NCBI GenBank assembly: GCA_035541935.1
Contig: DATKMJ010000067.1
Coordinates: forward strand, 1-64,000
Direction of reading: 5' to 3'
Source: Candidatus Binatia bacterium
GTDB lineage: Bacteria > Vulcanimicrobiota > Vulcanimicrobiia > Vulcanimicrobiales > Vulcanimicrobiaceae
DNA: 64,000 nucleotides
Position 1 is the stretch's first letter. Every line of letters starts with the position of its first letter. Positions 35,227-55,083 of this stretch are shown in pieces. The notes under the pieces were generated by a model, which saw only the letters and a program-made list of their open reading frames with translations, was not told the origin of the DNA and did no database searches. Made by a program: the position numbers and the translations under genes.

Positions 35227-36504
35227 ATGCCGGAGAGACTCAGCGCGCCGCGCGGCACCGGAGATTTCTATCCACCGGAGTCGGGGCGTTGGAACGCGCT
35301 CGAAGCCAGGATTCACGCGCTCGCCGCCCGCTATGGGTACGGCGAGATACGCACGCCGGTCTTCGAATCGACCGATCTCTTCGTGCGCGGCGTCGGCGAG
35401 CAGACCGACATCGTCGAGAAAGAGATGTACACGTTTGCCGATCGCGGGAACCGATCGCTGACGCTTCGTCCCGAATGGACGGCGCCGGTCGTGCGCGCGG
35501 CGCTCGAGCACCATCTCGTCGGATCCGATCCGCTGCGGCTCTACTACATCGGGCCGATCTTTCGTTACGAGCGGCCGCAGAAAGGACGGTACCGGCAGTC
35601 GCACCAGTTCGGCGTCGAGTGTTTCGGGTTCGAAGGGCCCGAGGCGGACGTCGAGGTGATCGAGATGGCGTGGCAGCTCGTCCGGAGTTACGATATCGCC
35701 GACGCGACGCTGCATATCAACTCGCTCGGCGACGAGAACTGCCGTCCGCGTTACCGCCAAGCGTTGCTCGATCACTTTCGGCCGCATCTCGCGGCGATGA
35801 GCGAGGACGCGCGGCGCCGCGCGGAGCGCAACCCGCTGCGGCTCCTCGACAGTAAGGATCCGGTCGACGCACCGTTCGTCAAGAGCGCGCCCTCGCTCGA
35901 ATCGTTTCTATGCCCGCAGTGCCGCGAGCACTTCGAAGCGGTGAAGTCCTATCTCGATCTTGCGAAGATCCCGTACGACGTCGATCCCGGCATCGTGCGC
36001 GGCCTCGATTACTACGGTCGAACGGTCTTCGAGATCAGGTCGGGCGTTCTCGGCGCGCAGAGCAGTCTCTGCGGCGGCGGGCGATACGACGAGCTCGTCG
36101 GCTCGCTCGGCGGACCGCCGACGCCCGCCGTCGGATTCGCGCTCGGGTTGGAGCGCTTCTTGATGATCGTCGCGGCGAGCGAACGCGGCGAAGAACCCGC
36201 GCGCCGCGGCGTGCAAGCGATCGCGCTCGGCCCGCAGGCGCGCGCCGTTCTCGTGCCGATCGTCGCCGAGCTGCGCCGCGCGCTCGACGCACCGACGTTC
36301 ATGGACTACCGCGAGCGAAAGCTGCTCGCGCATCTGAAGACCGCCGATCGCAATCGAGCCCGTTACGCGCTCATCGCCGGAACGCAGGAGCTGGCGGCGG
36401 GCCAGCTGGTCTTGCGGGACCTCGAGCACCGAAGCGACCGAACGGTGGCGCTCGACGCGGCGAGAGTCGTTGCGGAGCTTCTCGTAGAAGCGGGTTCTGG
36501 ATGA
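35227..36504 (+). CDS. hisS: Histidine--tRNA ligase
   Basis: A 425-residue class II synthetase. APRGTGDFYP, LRPEWTAPVVRA (motif 2 entry), GPIFRYERPQKGRYRQSHQF (motif 2), the histidine-binding RGLDYYGRTVFEI, and GFALGLERF (motif 3) are all present. The ATG at 35227 follows GAAGAGG; an in-frame ATG at 35191 is less well placed. The stop overlaps accB. Confidence 0.96.
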   Translation: MPERLSAPRGTGDFYPPESGRWNALEARIHALAARYGYGEIRTPVFESTDLFVRGVGEQTDIVEKEMYTFADRGNRSLTLRPEWTAPVVRAALEHHLVGSDPLRLYYIGPIFRYERPQKGRYRQSHQFGVECFGFEGPEADVEVIEMAWQLVRSYDIADATLHINSLGDENCRPRYRQALLDHFRPHLAAMSEDARRRAERNPLRLLDSKDPVDAPFVKSAPSLESFLCPQCREHFEAVKSYLDLAKIPYDVDPGIVRGLDYYGRTVFEIRSGVLGAQSSLCGGGRYDELVGSLGGPPTPAVGFALGLERFLMIVAASERGEEPARRGVQAIALGPQARAVLVPIVAELRRALDAPTFMDYRERKLLAHLKTADRNRARYALIAGTQELAAGQLVLRDLEHRSDRTVALDAARVVAELLVEAGSG

Positions 36505-48591: not shown

Positions 48592-50192
48592 GAGTTCCAA
48601 CTGTCGCCGATGAACGCGGCGGGAACGTAGTTCTTGAGATCGGAGTTCATCGCCGTGTAGTTCGTCCGCCACGTGAAGAAAACGGCCGGCACGAGCTCGC
48701 GGATGCGCTCCTCTTCACGCTGGTAGAGCCGCTTGCGCGCGGCGACGTCGAACGTGCTCGCGGCCGCGGCGCTCGTCTCGTTGACGACCGGGTCGTTCAG
48801 CCACGACGTGTTCGCGCCGCGCGGCGGGATGTACGCGCCGTTCCAATCGCCGGAGTTGTCGGGATCGGGGCCGTTCGTCTCGATCGACCACTCGAGATCG
48901 TACTTCCCGGTGTAGAGCGGACCGTTCGTCGCGAAGAGATAACTGCCGGGGTAGTTGCGTATCGTCAGGTCGATGCCGACCTCGCGCAGCATCGACTGGA
49001 TCACGACCTGCGACGCGGAGTTCTCTTCGTGGCCCGTCGTCGCGTAGATCGTAAGGCGCATCGTCTGCGCTCCCTTGTGCAGGAAGCCGTCGGCGCCGAG
49101 ACTCCATCCGGCGCGCGCGAGCAGCCGCTTCGCGTCGGACGGATCGAAGCGATAGGGCGGCAGCGCCGGCGCGGCCCACGACTCCGGAAAGATATCGGAG
49201 ACCGCGAGCCTGTCGACGCCGCGAAAGACCGTCGCGTTGATGCGTCGCCAATCGATCGCTTCGGCAATCGCGCGCCGAACGCGGACGTCGGAGAGCAGCG
49301 GCCGGCTTACGTTGATACCGAGATGGCGCCAGTCGGCGATCGTGCGCTTGTCGACCCGGATCCCATCGATCGACGAGAGTCGCGCGACCGCGTTGGGGTT
49401 CACGTTCGGATAGACGTCGACCTCGTGCGTCGCGAGCTGTTCGAAGAGCGTGTTGACGTCGGGCACGACCTTCCAGATCACTTCCTTGACCTTCGGCGGC
49501 CCGCGGAAGTAACGCGGATTGGGGACGAAGACGAGCGACGATCCGCGGCTCCACTCGCGCAACAGGTACGGGCCGCTCGAGAGCGGGCGTCCGTTGAACG
49601 GCGCGTTGTTGATGTTCGGGAGGTTTCCGAGCAGATGCGCCGGCATCGGGGGATAGGCCGCGCCGCCGAAGGCGAGTATGCCGAGAACGGCGACGTCGGG
49701 ACGGCGCAGCCGGATGACGATCGTGTACGGATCGGGCGCGCTTGCCGACGCGATGGATTGCCAGCCGTAGCGCGTCTTCACGTCGTTCGCGGGATTCATC
49801 ACCGCGCGATAGGTGAAGAGCCAGTCGGCCGCGGTGAGCGGCGCGCCGTCGGCCCAGACGACGCCGCGGCGCAGATGGACGACGATGCGACGGCCGTCGG
49901 GGCTGATGCCGCCGTTGCGCAGCGACGGCACCTGCGTCGCGAGATCGGGAACGTAGTTGCCGCGCGCGTCGTACCGAAGGATGAACGAAAAGAGCAGGCC
50001 GGAGATCGTATCGGCCGCGAGGGTGTGCGCGAACATCAAGTTGAGCGAGTCGGGCTCTTCGTCTTCGCCGAGGCGCACGACGCCCGGAACCGTCCACGGG
50101 TTGCGCGCCCCAAACGGCGCGACCCGCGCGTGCGCGCAGCCGCTCAGCGCGGTGAGCAATGCCAGCGCGGCGGCGATGCGCCGGGCGATCAT
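48573..50192 (-). CDS. ABC-transporter peptide-binding lipoprotein (SBP family 5)
   Basis: A 539-residue extracytoplasmic solute-binding protein, OppA/DppA type. The signal ends in the lipobox LSGC with Cys19. NLMFAHTLAADTI near the start, PDLATQVPS, WADGAPLTAADWLFTYRAVM (typical SBP_bac_5 signature) and LGINVSRPLLSDVRVRRAI are clear. No permease or ATPase genes are adjacent, so it must use a transporter encoded elsewhere. It lies between the DgcN-like and C39-like genes. Confidence 0.9.
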   Translation of the reverse strand: MIARRIAAALALLTALSGCAHARVAPFGARNPWTVPGVVRLGEDEEPDSLNLMFAHTLAADTISGLLFSFILRYDARGNYVPDLATQVPSLRNGGISPDGRRIVVHLRRGVVWADGAPLTAADWLFTYRAVMNPANDVKTRYGWQSIASASAPDPYTIVIRLRRPDVAVLGILAFGGAAYPPMPAHLLGNLPNINNAPFNGRPLSSGPYLLREWSRGSSLVFVPNPRYFRGPPKVKEVIWKVVPDVNTLFEQLATHEVDVYPNVNPNAVARLSSIDGIRVDKRTIADWRHLGINVSRPLLSDVRVRRAIAEAIDWRRINATVFRGVDRLAVSDIFPESWAAPALPPYRFDPSDAKRLLARAGWSLGADGFLHKGAQTMRLTIYATTGHEENSASQVVIQSMLREVGIDLTIRNYPGSYLFATNGPLYTGKYDLEWSIETNGPDPDNSGDWNGAYIPPRGANTSWLNDPVVNETSAAAASTFDVAARKRLYQREEERIRELVPAVFFTWRTNYTAMNSDLKNYVPAAFIGDSWNSWQWSI

Positions 50193-51253
50193 TCGGAGGG
50201 TGAAGCGAGCGGAGTTCGTTTGACGATTCGCTGCGCGATCGCGGCGTAGAATTGCGTCGCGCCGAAGCGCACGAGATCGTCGGCCGGCAGACCGGTCTCG
50301 GCGCGGGCGCGCTCGATCTGTGCGCGCGCCTCCCGCTCGTCTAAGCCGTACGTGTTGAGCGCGATGCCGACGACCGGCGCGGGTTTGATCGCCGCGAGCA
50401 ACCGTTCGTGCAGCCCGATCAGTTCCGAATAGCTCAGCGTCGGCGTTTGGTACGACTCGATCGCCGCGCGGCGCGGATCGGCGACGAGAACGAGCGCGTC
50501 GGGGGCGCTGCCGGTCATCAACGCGAGCGTTACCGCCGCGTAGGCGGGGTGGTTGATCGCGCCCTGCCCCTCGACGACGATGAGATCCGCGCCTTCGTGC
50601 GATGCGTAGAGCACGAGCTGCTCGGCCGCGCCCGCGGCAAAATCGGCGATGACGCGATCGACGGAGATTCCCCAGCCCGCAATCAGCACGCCGGTCTGAC
50701 CCGTCGGAACGAAGCGCGCCTTCTTCCCGGCGGCGTTCGCCGCGCGCACGAGTTCGAGCGAAACCGTCATCTTGCCGACGGCGCAGTCGTTGCCGATCGT
50801 GAGCAGCACCGGTGCCGTTACGGCGTACGCATCGCCGGAGAAGAGCGGAACCTCGGGCGGCTCGCGGACGTCCCAGATCGCCGTTCCCGCGGCGTCGGCC
50901 GCGCGGGCGAACTCCCGATCGCGGCCGAGAATCTCGTGCAGGCCGCTGACGATCTCGAGCTTTGCGGCGATCGCTTCGAGCACCGCGGCGCGCCAACTCG
51001 GGGGCAGTCCGCCGCCCTTCGGTGCGGTTCCGACGAGCAGCGAGGTCGGCGAAAACCGCAGCGCCTCGCCGACGCTCGCGACGATCGGTGCGTCGCTGTC
51101 GAGGTGCGCGAGCACGTCGCGCACGCTCCGGCCCGCATGCGAGGGATCGACGACGGCGACGACCTCGTCGTTGCCGTAGCGAATGACGCCGTGCGCGGTC
51201 TTGGCGTCGGCGGCGAAGCGTTCGGGTGCGAGGATCGCGTAGCGGCGGATCAT
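50189..51253 (-). CDS. DUF1611-family protein, DgcN-like (D-glutamate N-acetyltransferase)
   Basis: A 354-residue protein with an N-terminal Rossmann-like part and a C-terminal P-loop-like domain (TIGNDCAVGKMTVSLEL, VEGQGAINHPAY). Members paired with a dipeptide epimerase-like enzyme (DgcN with DgcA) convert D-glutamate to N-acetyl-D-glutamate and then N-acetyl-L-glutamate in marine bacteria. Here the two genes overlap by 4 bases (ATGA). The assignment rests on family and pairing; other DUF1611 proteins may differ. Confidence 0.78.
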   Translation of the reverse strand: MIRRYAILAPERFAADAKTAHGVIRYGNDEVVAVVDPSHAGRSVRDVLAHLDSDAPIVASVGEALRFSPTSLLVGTAPKGGGLPPSWRAAVLEAIAAKLEIVSGLHEILGRDREFARAADAAGTAIWDVREPPEVPLFSGDAYAVTAPVLLTIGNDCAVGKMTVSLELVRAANAAGKKARFVPTGQTGVLIAGWGISVDRVIADFAAGAAEQLVLYASHEGADLIVVEGQGAINHPAYAAVTLALMTGSAPDALVLVADPRRAAIESYQTPTLSYSELIGLHERLLAAIKPAPVVGIALNTYGLDEREARAQIERARAETGLPADDLVRFGATQFYAAIAQRIVKRTPLASPSE

Positions 51254-52266
51254 GCCGGCGCGACGGCGCGCACGCCGAGACCCGGCGCGTCGGGGAGCAC
51301 GAGCTTACCGTCACGATACGTGACGCCGGCGAAGGGATCGTGCGCGATGAGCAGCGGTCCGTCGATATCGGCCCAGTCGGCCAGCGGCGAAAGGTGCGCG
51401 GCGGCGGTCGCGGCGATCGCGCTCTCGACCATGCACCCGATCATCACGCGCATTCCCATCGCGCGCGCCGTGTGGATCATTGCGAGCGCGCCGCGGATGC
51501 CGCCGGTCTTCGCGAGCTTGACGTTGACGCCGTCGACGCAGCCGTAGAGGCGCGGAAGATCGTTGGCGTCCATCGCGTCTTCGTCGGCGACGATCGGGAT
51601 CGTCACGCGTTCGCGAACCGCGCGCAGTTGCTCGGGGCTCCCGGCGGGAACCGGCTGCTCGCAGCACTCGATCTCGTAACGCTCGAGCTCGCGCAAGATC
51701 GCGACCGCATCCTCGACGTCCCAGCCCTCGTTCGCGTCGATCCGGATGACGCCGCGATACCGCTCCCGAATCGCGGCGATCGTCTCAACCTGTTCGGCGC
51801 GGGTGCCGCTCCCGAGCTTGATCTTGAGAATCGGGTGGTCGCCCGCCTCGGCGAGCTTGCGCAGCGTCGTCTCAGGATCGGCGATGCCGATCGTGAACGA
51901 GGTCGTGGCCGATGCTGCCGGGTCGAGGCCGAGCAGCGCGTAGAGCGGCTTTCCGAGGTCTCTGCCGATGAGGTCGTGCAACGCGAGGTCGAGGCCGCCG
52001 CGCGCCGCCGCCGGAATGCCGGAGTGGAGCAGCCTCTCGAGCAGATAGGGATCGTCGGCGGCGAGTTCGTGCGTTTCGAAGTAGCCGGCGACGCTCTCCA
52101 CCGTTTCGCCGTAGCGCTCGATCGGCGTCGCTTCGCCGATCCCTTCGCGGCCCTCCGATTCGATGCGGATCAATGCCGTGCGCGCGACGGTCTCCTCGCC
52201 GCGCGCGATCTTGAAGGGATGCCGAAGCGGGAGTTCGAGTGCCTCTATGCCGAGCGAGAGCGCCAT
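51250..52266 (-). CDS. Dipeptide epimerase / N-acyl-D-glutamate racemase (enolase superfamily)
   Basis: A 338-residue muconate-lactonising-type enzyme. KIKLGSG carries the catalytic KxK, RIDANEGW and CEQPV the metal ligands, ADEDAM the third ligand, and NVKLAKTGG the second base. It could epimerise L-Ala-D/L-Glu from murein, or act as DgcA on N-acetyl-D-glutamate; the adjacent DUF1611 gene favours the second or both. ATG 52266 has AAAGG upstream; a TTG at 52281 is possible. First gene of the operon. Confidence 0.88.
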   Translation of the reverse strand: MALSLGIEALELPLRHPFKIARGEETVARTALIRIESEGREGIGEATPIERYGETVESVAGYFETHELAADDPYLLERLLHSGIPAAARGGLDLALHDLIGRDLGKPLYALLGLDPAASATTSFTIGIADPETTLRKLAEAGDHPILKIKLGSGTRAEQVETIAAIRERYRGVIRIDANEGWDVEDAVAILRELERYEIECCEQPVPAGSPEQLRAVRERVTIPIVADEDAMDANDLPRLYGCVDGVNVKLAKTGGIRGALAMIHTARAMGMRVMIGCMVESAIAATAAAHLSPLADWADIDGPLLIAHDPFAGVTYRDGKLVLPDAPGLGVRAVAPA

Positions 52267-52341
52267 CGCTGCGCCTTTCAACCGGGCGCCGCACCTTCCC
52301 CGGCGCGGCTTGACGCGCGGTGGTACTGTAGAGAGGCTCGA

Positions 52342-52514
52342 CTGCGTATAGCGCGCAGCGCGCGTTGGTACCGAACCGACTAGTTGGACCTAGGGAGCAT
52401 CAGCTCCGGATACGACGGTTTCTGCCGGGTCACGTACCTGCCGAGCCGGCGCCCGGGCCGCACCCACCTGCGAGAACGCAGGTTCGATCGCCGCGCGCAA
52501 GACGCTATGTGCGG
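52342..52514 (+). ncRNA. Candidate structured non-coding RNA, 6S-like architecture
   Basis: The gap between the epimerase and the next gene folds into one long closing stem on the plus strand: CTGCGT-ATAGCG (52342-52353) with CGCTAT-GTGCGG (52503-52514), a 4-by-4 internal loop, then GCGCGCG (52358-52364) with CGCGCGC (52492-52498). Three wobble pairs work only on the plus strand. Inside are GGAGC-ATCA-GCTCC and CCTGCG-AGAA-CGCAGG hairpins. Length (about 173) and layout recall 6S RNA. A TTGACG at 52310 could be a -35 box, but no good -10 is seen. Family unproven. Confidence 0.4.
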
Positions 52515-53239
52515 TTGGGCATTTCCGTCGTTGCGGCGAGCGCCGCGCGCCAGCGGCCGATCGCGGCGGCGAGAGCCGCGGCGGTCGATGCGCCCGATGC
52601 GTCGGTGACGGCGACGTGCCCGCGAAACGCCGCGAATGCGTCGATCGTATCGGCGATCGAACGGTCGGTCTGCAGCGCGGCATCGCTCCAGAGCAGGACG
52701 GTGTTCGGCTGCAGCGCCCGCGGATCGCTCGCTGCGTCGAACCGCTGCGGCTCCGGCCCGAAGCGCAGCCACGCCGAGTCGGCCTCTTTTGCGACGCGCT
52801 TGCAGTCGTGCGTGCCGGCGGCGTACGTCTGCGGCGCGTTGCGCACCGCGATCGTGACGTTCGCGGCCTTGGCCAACGACGTCGCGGTCCCGAGCCGCTC
52901 GAGTTGCTCGCTCCAGGGAAGGTCGACGTCGCGCGCGAGGGGGGACGCGACGAGCGGGGCGCCGAGCGTGACGGCGCGGCCGAGCACGGCAGCCATCTCC
53001 CCTCGCGTCGCGCTCAAGAACGTGGCGTCCTCGAGCGCCGCGATCGAGAGCCCCCGGTCGGTCGTCATCTTCTTGACCTGAGCGAGGTAGTCGTCGTCGG
53101 TTCGAGGAAAATGCCGCACGTCTAAGACGACGCCGTCGCAAGCGAGATCGCGCGCGCAAATGTCGACGAATTCGAGTTGCGTCAGCTCGCCGCTCGCGAT
53201 GTCGCGGTGAAGCGAACTGCTCGCGCAAGCAAGCTTCAT
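52505..53239 (-). CDS. Sugar-phosphate isomerase/epimerase-like TIM-barrel protein
   Basis: A 244-residue protein resembling the AP-endonuclease-2 / xylose isomerase-like TIM-barrel family. The start is MKLACASSSLHRDIASGEL, then LEFVDICARDLACDGVVLDVRHF places a barrel strand with Asp, followed by further strands with weak motifs. The typical metal-binding Glu and His residues are not all evident, so activity is uncertain. It overlaps the 3' arm of the candidate RNA by a few bases and is divergent from rpiB. Confidence 0.6.
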   Translation of the reverse strand: MKLACASSSLHRDIASGELTQLEFVDICARDLACDGVVLDVRHFPRTDDDYLAQVKKMTTDRGLSIAALEDATFLSATRGEMAAVLGRAVTLGAPLVASPLARDVDLPWSEQLERLGTATSLAKAANVTIAVRNAPQTYAAGTHDCKRVAKEADSAWLRFGPEPQRFDAASDPRALQPNTVLLWSDAALQTDRSIADTIDAFAAFRGHVAVTDASGASTAAALAAAIGRWRAALAATTEMPNRT

Positions 53240-53290
53240 CGGCGTCGGACGTTCGACCGCTCGACGTTTCTCACCCTTGCCGTTGGACGG

Positions 53291-53821
53291 ATGGAGAAGA
53301 TGAAAATCGCCCTCGGCGCCGACCACGCCGGATTCGAATACAAAGACCGCATCGTGAAGATCTTGCGCGACCGCGGCCACGAGACGATTGACTTTGGAAC
53401 CCACGACGCGACGCCGGTCGACTACCCGCAGTACGGCTATGCCGTCGGCGAGGCGGTTGCGAGCGGACAGGCCGAGCGCGGCATCGTCGTCTGCGGGTCG
53501 AGCCTGGGCATCGCGATGGCCGCGAACAAAGTGCCCGGCGTCCGCTGCGCGCCGGTGACGGAGCCCTACTCGGCAGAGCTCGCGCGCCGGCATAACGACG
53601 CGAACGTCATCGCCTTCTCCGAGCGCCTGACGGGCATCGAGATGGTCGAGCGCATGCTCGACGTCTTCCTCGAGACGTCGTTCGACGGCGGCCGCCACGC
53701 CTATCGCGTCGAGCAGCTCTTCGAGTTCGGCGACGAGCAGCGCGCGCGGACGTTAAAGGACCTCGAGCGCGGTGAGGTGACCGACGCGAAGACGCCGCAG
53801 GAGCTTATCGGAGTACCGTAG
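53291..53821 (+). CDS. rpiB: Ribose-5-phosphate isomerase B with a C-terminal extension
   Basis: A 176-residue RpiB/LacAB-type enzyme interconverting ribose-5-P and ribulose-5-[14 protein letters not shown] is the phosphate-loop start, [23 protein letters not shown] carries the catalytic Cys, and [16 protein letters not shown] follows. The usual length is about 145; an extra 30 charged residues follow [12 protein letters not shown] 53291 was chosen; the ATG at 53300 is possible. Followed by glyA, the conserved order. Confidence 0.92.
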
Positions 53822-53835
53822 GCGAAGAACGAGCC

Positions 53836-55083
53836 GTGGACATCCTGACGCCCCAGAACGTCGAAGCGCAAGACCCGGAGCTCTTCGCGGCGATCGCCGG
53901 CGAGGAGCGCCGCCAACGCGACAACCTCGAGTTGATCGCGTCGGAGAACTATACGAGCCGCGCGGTCCGCGAAGCGATGGGCTGCGTCATGACCAACAAG
54001 TACGCGGAAGGCTACCCCGGCAAGCGTTACTACGGCGGCTGCGAGTGGGTCGACGTCGCCGAGCGGCTCGCGATCGATCGCGTCAAGCAGATCTTCGGCG
54101 CGGAGCACGCCAACGTGCAGCCGCACTCGGGCGCGCAGGCGAACATGGCGGTCTTCATGGCGGTGCTGACTCCCGGCGATACGGTGCTGGGCATGTCGCT
54201 CGCGCACGGCGGCCATCTCACGCACGGCACGAAGGTCAGTTTCTCCGGCAAGCTCTACAACGCGATTGCGTACGGAGTCCGTAAGGAGACCGAGCTCATC
54301 GATTTCGACGAGGTGCGCGCGCTGGCACGCGAGCATCGCCCGAAGTTAATCGTTGCGGGCGCGAGCGCCTACCCGAGAACGATGGAGTACGCCCCGTTCC
54401 GCGAGATCGCCGATGAGGTCGGCGCGAAGCTCATGGTGGATTTCGCGCATATCGCCGGTCTCGTCGCCGTCGGCCTTCACCCGTCACCGGTTCCGCTCGC
54501 GGAGTTCGTGACGTCCACGACGCACAAGACGCTGCGCGGACCGCGCGGCGGGTTCGTGCTCAGCACGAGCGAGTGGGCGCAGCTGGTCGACAAGAGCGTC
54601 TTCCCGGGAATCCAGGGCGGACCGCTGATGCATACGATCGCCGCGAAGGCGGTCGGATTCCACGAAGCGCTGCAGCCCGAGTTCGTCACGTACCAGCGTC
54701 ACGTGATCGAGAACGCGAGCGTCATGGCCGAGGAGTTCGAGCGAGCCGGCCTGCGACTCGTCGCGGGCGGCACCGACACGCATTTGATTCTGCTCGACGT
54801 CTCGGTGAAGGGCCTGACCGGCAAAGCGGTCGAGGCCTATCTCGACGAGATCGGCATCACGGTGAACAAGAACGCGATTCCGTTCGATCCGCAGAAGCCG
54901 ATGATCGCCAGCGGCATCCGCATCGGAACGCCCGCGATCACCGCGCGCGGGCTGCGGGCGCAAGAGTGCCGGGAGGTCGCGCGCATTATGTGCGCGGGCC
55001 TCGGCGACATCGAATCCCGCGCCAACGTCGAGCGCCTCCGCGACCGCGTGCGGGAGCTAACGTCGCGCTACGACGTACCCTAA
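53836..55083 (+). CDS. glyA: Serine hydroxymethyltransferase
   Basis: A 415-residue PLP enzyme for serine-glycine exchange with tetrahydrofolate. [33 protein letters not shown] and the PLP lysine in [13 protein letters not shown] are definitive. GTG start at 53836, 14 bases after rpiB. A stem-loop covers its stop codon. Confidence 0.97.

Follow-up and report, generated by a model that had tools for sequence, protein, structure and literature searches.

A divergent 6S RNA gene in an Eremiobacterota genome, missed by standard annotation cut-offs

A 6S RNA gene below the Rfam cut-off

We found that positions 52336 to 52521 on the plus strand of the window (the whole stretch of 64,000 nucleotides that was analysed) almost certainly hold the single 6S RNA gene of an Eremiobacterota genome, whose role in the cell we infer by homology. 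The RNA is a known kind of molecule, a divergent ortholog of the Rfam 6S family (RF00013) that standard annotation cut-offs miss throughout its family, whose members are uncultured bacteria of soil. Bacterial 6S RNA mimics an open promoter and holds RNA polymerase; elsewhere it is abundant and increases in stationary phase. A limited literature search returned no publication that deals with Eremiobacterota 6S RNA. The features of the locus are collected in Table 1.

Table 1. Features of the 6S RNA locus, in window coordinates
Feature	Positions	Strand	Remarks
Enolase-superfamily epimerase gene	51250-52266 (start at 52266)	-	Upstream of the RNA and antisense to it
Conserved CTTGAC box	52309-52314	+	TTGAC box upstream of the RNA
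-10-like element TACTGT	52324-52329	+	Spacer of 6 nt to the RNA; relatives have a similar element at this position; putative, from sequence only
6S RNA gene (predicted transcript, ~186 nt; predicted ends)	52336-52521	+	RF00013 match, model positions 1-187
Closing stem, 5' strand, 18 pairs	52336-52353	+	Two-sided changes in 12 of 18 pairs
Closing stem, 3' strand	52503-52520	+	Partner of 52336-52353; covariation
Inner helix, 5' strand, 7 pairs	52358-52364	+	Two-sided changes in 6 of 7 pairs, but only 73.5% of cells paired
Inner helix, 3' strand	52492-52498	+	Partner of 52358-52364; covariation
Helix P2, 5' strand GAACC, beside the central bubble; predicted pRNA template	52373-52377	+	Pairs with 52481-52485
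Helix P2, 3' strand GGTTC	52481-52485	+	Pairs with 52373-52377
Predicted pRNA start (pRNA 5'-GUCGGUUCGGUACCAACGC)	52380	+	By analogy with B. subtilis 6S-1 (PMC8876501)
Terminal stem, 5' side, GGGAGCATCAGCTCCGG and following bases	52393-52414	+	Pairs with 52450-52465
Terminal stem, 3' side, ending CCGGGCCGCACCC	52450-52465	+	Holds part of the GCACCCACCUG block common with the RF00013 consensus
3'-central-bubble hairpin CCTGCG-AGAA-CGCAGG	52467-52482	+	97.5% of cells paired
Stop codon of the TIM-barrel protein gene	52505-52507	-	Gene downstream of the RNA, convergent

At the gathering cut-offs, Rfam reports zero matches across the whole window. With permissive scoring, RF00013 is the top family in the gap that holds the RNA, matching over the full model (positions 1-187) with 24.2 bits and an E-value of 0.0037, which lies below its gathering cut-off of 46.4 bits, an annotation threshold and not a biological feature. 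In the whole genome (2.4 Mb), this locus is the sole RF00013 match at E ≤ 10 (E = 0.0068). Since a score of 24 bits is by itself only a lead, the identification rests on orthology.

Orthologs connect the locus to recognized 6S genes

The RF00013 score is graded across related families. It reaches at most 43.8 bits in the RNA's own family, where none of 99 genomes exceeds the cut-off, 42.5 to 52.2 bits in a sister family of the same order, and 76.6 to 94.3 bits in a sister family within the same class (13 of 14 genomes). A covariance model built from own-family sequences only (R1) matches 86 of the 99 own-family genomes, one copy apiece (a count derived from the match table). In other families, R1 recovers the loci found with RF00013, at matching coordinates (e.g., G043:C1:35926-36100 versus 35924-36105). 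Across most of the genus, and in several further genera of its family, the DNA of the locus is 80 to 85% conserved. The core pattern occurs in 62 genome records, and the phylum, where it is titled, is always Candidatus Eremiobacterota, WPS-2, or UBP12.

The R1 search gave no match in 13 of the 99 family genomes (e.g., G004, G006, G011, G015, G023, and G073). Most of these are incomplete drafts; G023 and G073, which belong to one genus, are 93 to 96% complete. For G023, matches to different stretches of the RNA fall on two distinct contigs, one match lying at the end of its contig, so the assembly has probably broken the gene.

The gap is flanked by two minus-strand genes, encoding a TIM-barrel protein and an enolase-superfamily epimerase. 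In the sister families whose 6S RNA scores above the cut-off, the RNA likewise follows the epimerase gene and precedes the TIM-barrel gene, and both genes are antisense to it. The order DUF1611, epimerase, 6S RNA, TIM-barrel gene, rpiB, and glyA (50189-55083) is kept across most of the family and is partly retained in the sister families. Given the position of the TIM-barrel stop codon, the 3' end of the RNA (52505-52520) overlaps the 3' end of this convergent gene by about 16 bases.

The RNA shares with the RF00013 copies in other families of the phylum its architecture, length, GCACCCACCUG block, template-side CC motif, and helix P2, as well as its single copy and gene neighbors. Relative to the RF00013 consensus, its closing-stem sequence has diverged: in its own family neither the GUGUUCG and CGGCAC motifs of this stem nor the apical hairpin GCAAGCCC...GGGAAGCC can be recognized, whereas the sister family of the class retains all three. 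The low RF00013 score and the resulting annotation gap are explained by the loss of these elements.

The original prediction had left the choice between a new and a 6S-like RNA. The unique sub-threshold match, the graded series of orthologs, the reciprocal model, the gene neighborhood, and the covariation described below together make the second half of that choice nearly certain, whereas an RF00013 ortholog is not a new kind of RNA. The family, with 6S RNA in 0 of 99 genomes by the Rfam cut-off and in 86 of 99 by the lineage model, merely appears to lack it, so that caution is due wherever Rfam cut-offs suggest that an uncultured phylum lacks 6S RNA. The alignment made here could widen the Rfam family model.

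Covariation identifies the 6S fold

The two helices described originally, of 12 pairs (52342-52353 with 52503-52514) and 7 pairs (52358-52364 with 52492-52498), the symmetric 4-by-4 internal loop between them, and the two internal hairpins are present exactly as described. The outer helix is, however, longer than the 12 pairs proposed, comprising 18 continuous pairs, 6 of them further out, to 52336/52520. Closing stem, helix beside the central bubble, and terminal stem all occur within the one predicted RNA of about 186 nt, as expected of a 6S RNA, which has about 150 to 200 nt.

Single-sequence folding energy does not demonstrate this structure: the window segment has a z-score of -1.33 relative to 200 shuffles, 18 of which fold equally well or better, and such a value is unremarkable for a sequence so rich in G+C. 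The evidence beyond chance is evolutionary. In a MAFFT alignment of 31 sequences, unfitted to any structure, 88.2% of cells are paired under the canonical 6S pairing, versus 33 to 41% with the partner strand displaced by 1 to 3 columns. Covariation, for which the original prediction had proposed to look in aligned relatives, is strong, with two-sided changes in 19 of 35 pairs (12 in the closing stem, 6 in the inner helix, and 1 in helix P2), and RNAalifold yields the same architecture as canonical 6S from the unfitted alignment. Among 62 named loci (55 distinct), 23 of 41 pairs carry two-sided changes, in an alignment that was made to the model and hence leans towards it.

The terminal stem is nearly invariant, so that its support comes from few substitutions; these (G-C to U-A in the sister family and C-G to U-A in L037) are compensatory for the canonical stem. 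The GGAGC-ATCA-GCTCC hairpin can be drawn from the letters as predicted, yet as the main ground-state structure the canonical terminal stem has better support: the closing pair of the hairpin is broken in four sequences of the sister family, and there the canonical stem compensates. We therefore rejected the local hairpin as the ground state, and its bases probably form the canonical 6S terminal stem instead. Both structures may exist, at different moments.

Helix P2 and a candidate release hairpin

Helix P2 is paired in 99.4% of cells, with a change from A-U to G-C in 7 of 31 sequences. Beside it, the 5' side of the central bubble carries a template motif, GAACC-GAC and variants, in which the CC is invariant and aligned in all rows. 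In B. subtilis 6S-1, pRNA synthesis starts with GTP (PMC8876501), and by analogy with this GTP-type start we place the predicted pRNA start of the window RNA at 52380. The predicted pRNAs would begin GUCGGUUC and be antisense to 52366-52380.

The CCTGC/GCAGG hairpin and helix P2 are mutually exclusive, because both use the GG at 52481-52482. In E. coli 6S, a 3'-central-bubble hairpin forms with the P2 3' strand once pRNA synthesis disrupts P2 (PMC8876501). Both B. subtilis 6S-1 and E. coli 6S possess a hairpin at this place, as does the window RNA, and the use of P2 3'-strand bases is common to the E. coli and window hairpins (PMC8876501). The arrangement thus matches the E. coli release hairpin, although the latter has 9 pairs, compared with 4 to 6 in the window RNA, where a release function would follow by analogy.

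Taken together, these features suggest the following scheme. A plus-strand transcript of about 186 nt, made from its own promoter, would fold into a closing stem with an internal loop, helix P2, the central bubble, and the terminal stem. From established 6S biology, the central bubble would mimic an open promoter and trap the holoenzyme of RNA polymerase with its housekeeping sigma factor. When nucleotides return, the polymerase, starting near C52380, would transcribe the 5' side of the bubble into a short pRNA (predicted: GUCGGUUCGGUACC...), and this pRNA would remove GAACC (52373-52377) from helix P2. The freed P2 3' strand could then close the CCUGC/GCAGG hairpin and help to release the enzyme. 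Fold, conservation, covariation, and orthology are shown by the sequence comparisons, and polymerase binding and pRNA synthesis are presumed by analogy with known 6S RNAs. The locus offers a defined target for studying pRNA-driven release in a deep lineage.

Alternative readings of the locus

It is improbable, in our judgment, that the RNA derives from 6S yet has shifted its role in this family, for example by binding core polymerase and not the sigma holoenzyme, as Ms1 does. Such a shift would fit the loss of the sister-family sequence motifs and the fall in RF00013 score from 77-94 bits to at most 44, and Ms1 in Actinobacteria (PMC9130861) provides a precedent: there too, a 6S-related fold was missed by sequence searches and found with the help of gene synteny. 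The window RNA, however, retains the central bubble, the template-side CC motif, helix P2, and a release hairpin exclusive with P2, as expected if pRNA-driven release still operates.

The remaining alternatives dispense with 6S altogether. Because the gap lies immediately upstream of the epimerase gene on the minus strand, the structure could be read as a cis-regulatory leader of that gene, which we consider very improbable: in relatives the epimerase gene has moved as far as about 3.5 kb off with the RNA unchanged, the conserved promoter-like elements are oriented on the plus strand, towards the RNA, and the wobble pairs favor the plus strand, as originally proposed (146 G-U cells versus 34 A-C cells in the 31 sequences). 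Least probable of all, to a degree that makes it nearly negligible, is an SRP RNA or another known structured RNA. SRP had been named for checking alongside 6S, but no SRP family matches the gap at E ≤ 10; the next-best Rfam families, M23 (E = 0.1) and Xoo5 (E = 0.47), both match the minus strand and fall far short of their cut-offs, and we regard them as noise. A search for tRNA and tmRNA found none, and the orthology to 6S loci contradicts any such assignment.

Conserved elements upstream of the 6S gene

Of 55 loci, 47 have a TTGAC box 20 to 45 nt upstream of the model start, versus 1.9% in shuffles, and the box is followed by the -10-like element. We rejected CTTGAC as an ordinary -35 box, as the spacer to the -10-like element (about 9 nt) is too short, and CTTGAC-N-GTGGTA as a genome-wide promoter type, as it has just two matches in its own genome. 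In 29 of 61 loci (e.g., L136 and L137), a palindrome, GTCAAG-N(1-3)-CTTGAC, precedes the 6S gene and includes CTTGAC as its right half; of this palindrome, the window genome retains only CTTGAC, separated by about 9 nt from the -10-like element. A search of eight near-complete genomes located the palindrome at the 6S gene and at a single other site, inside an apparent flagellar coding region. Since it is confined to the 6S gene save for this one site, the palindrome is not a general promoter element. Judging from these sequences, a dedicated regulator may bind there. A bolder proposal, which we think unlikely, is that the family's 6S RNA lost several conserved elements together because the polymerase or the use of the RNA changed, leaving a functionally distinct variant with a dedicated regulator that would read GTCAAG-N-CTTGAC.

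In one relative (locus L119), the promoter elements are separated from the RNA by a near-perfect inverted repeat, TTCTAGGAGCC...GGCTCCTAGAA, located immediately before position 2037; it represents either a 5' extension or an assembly artefact.
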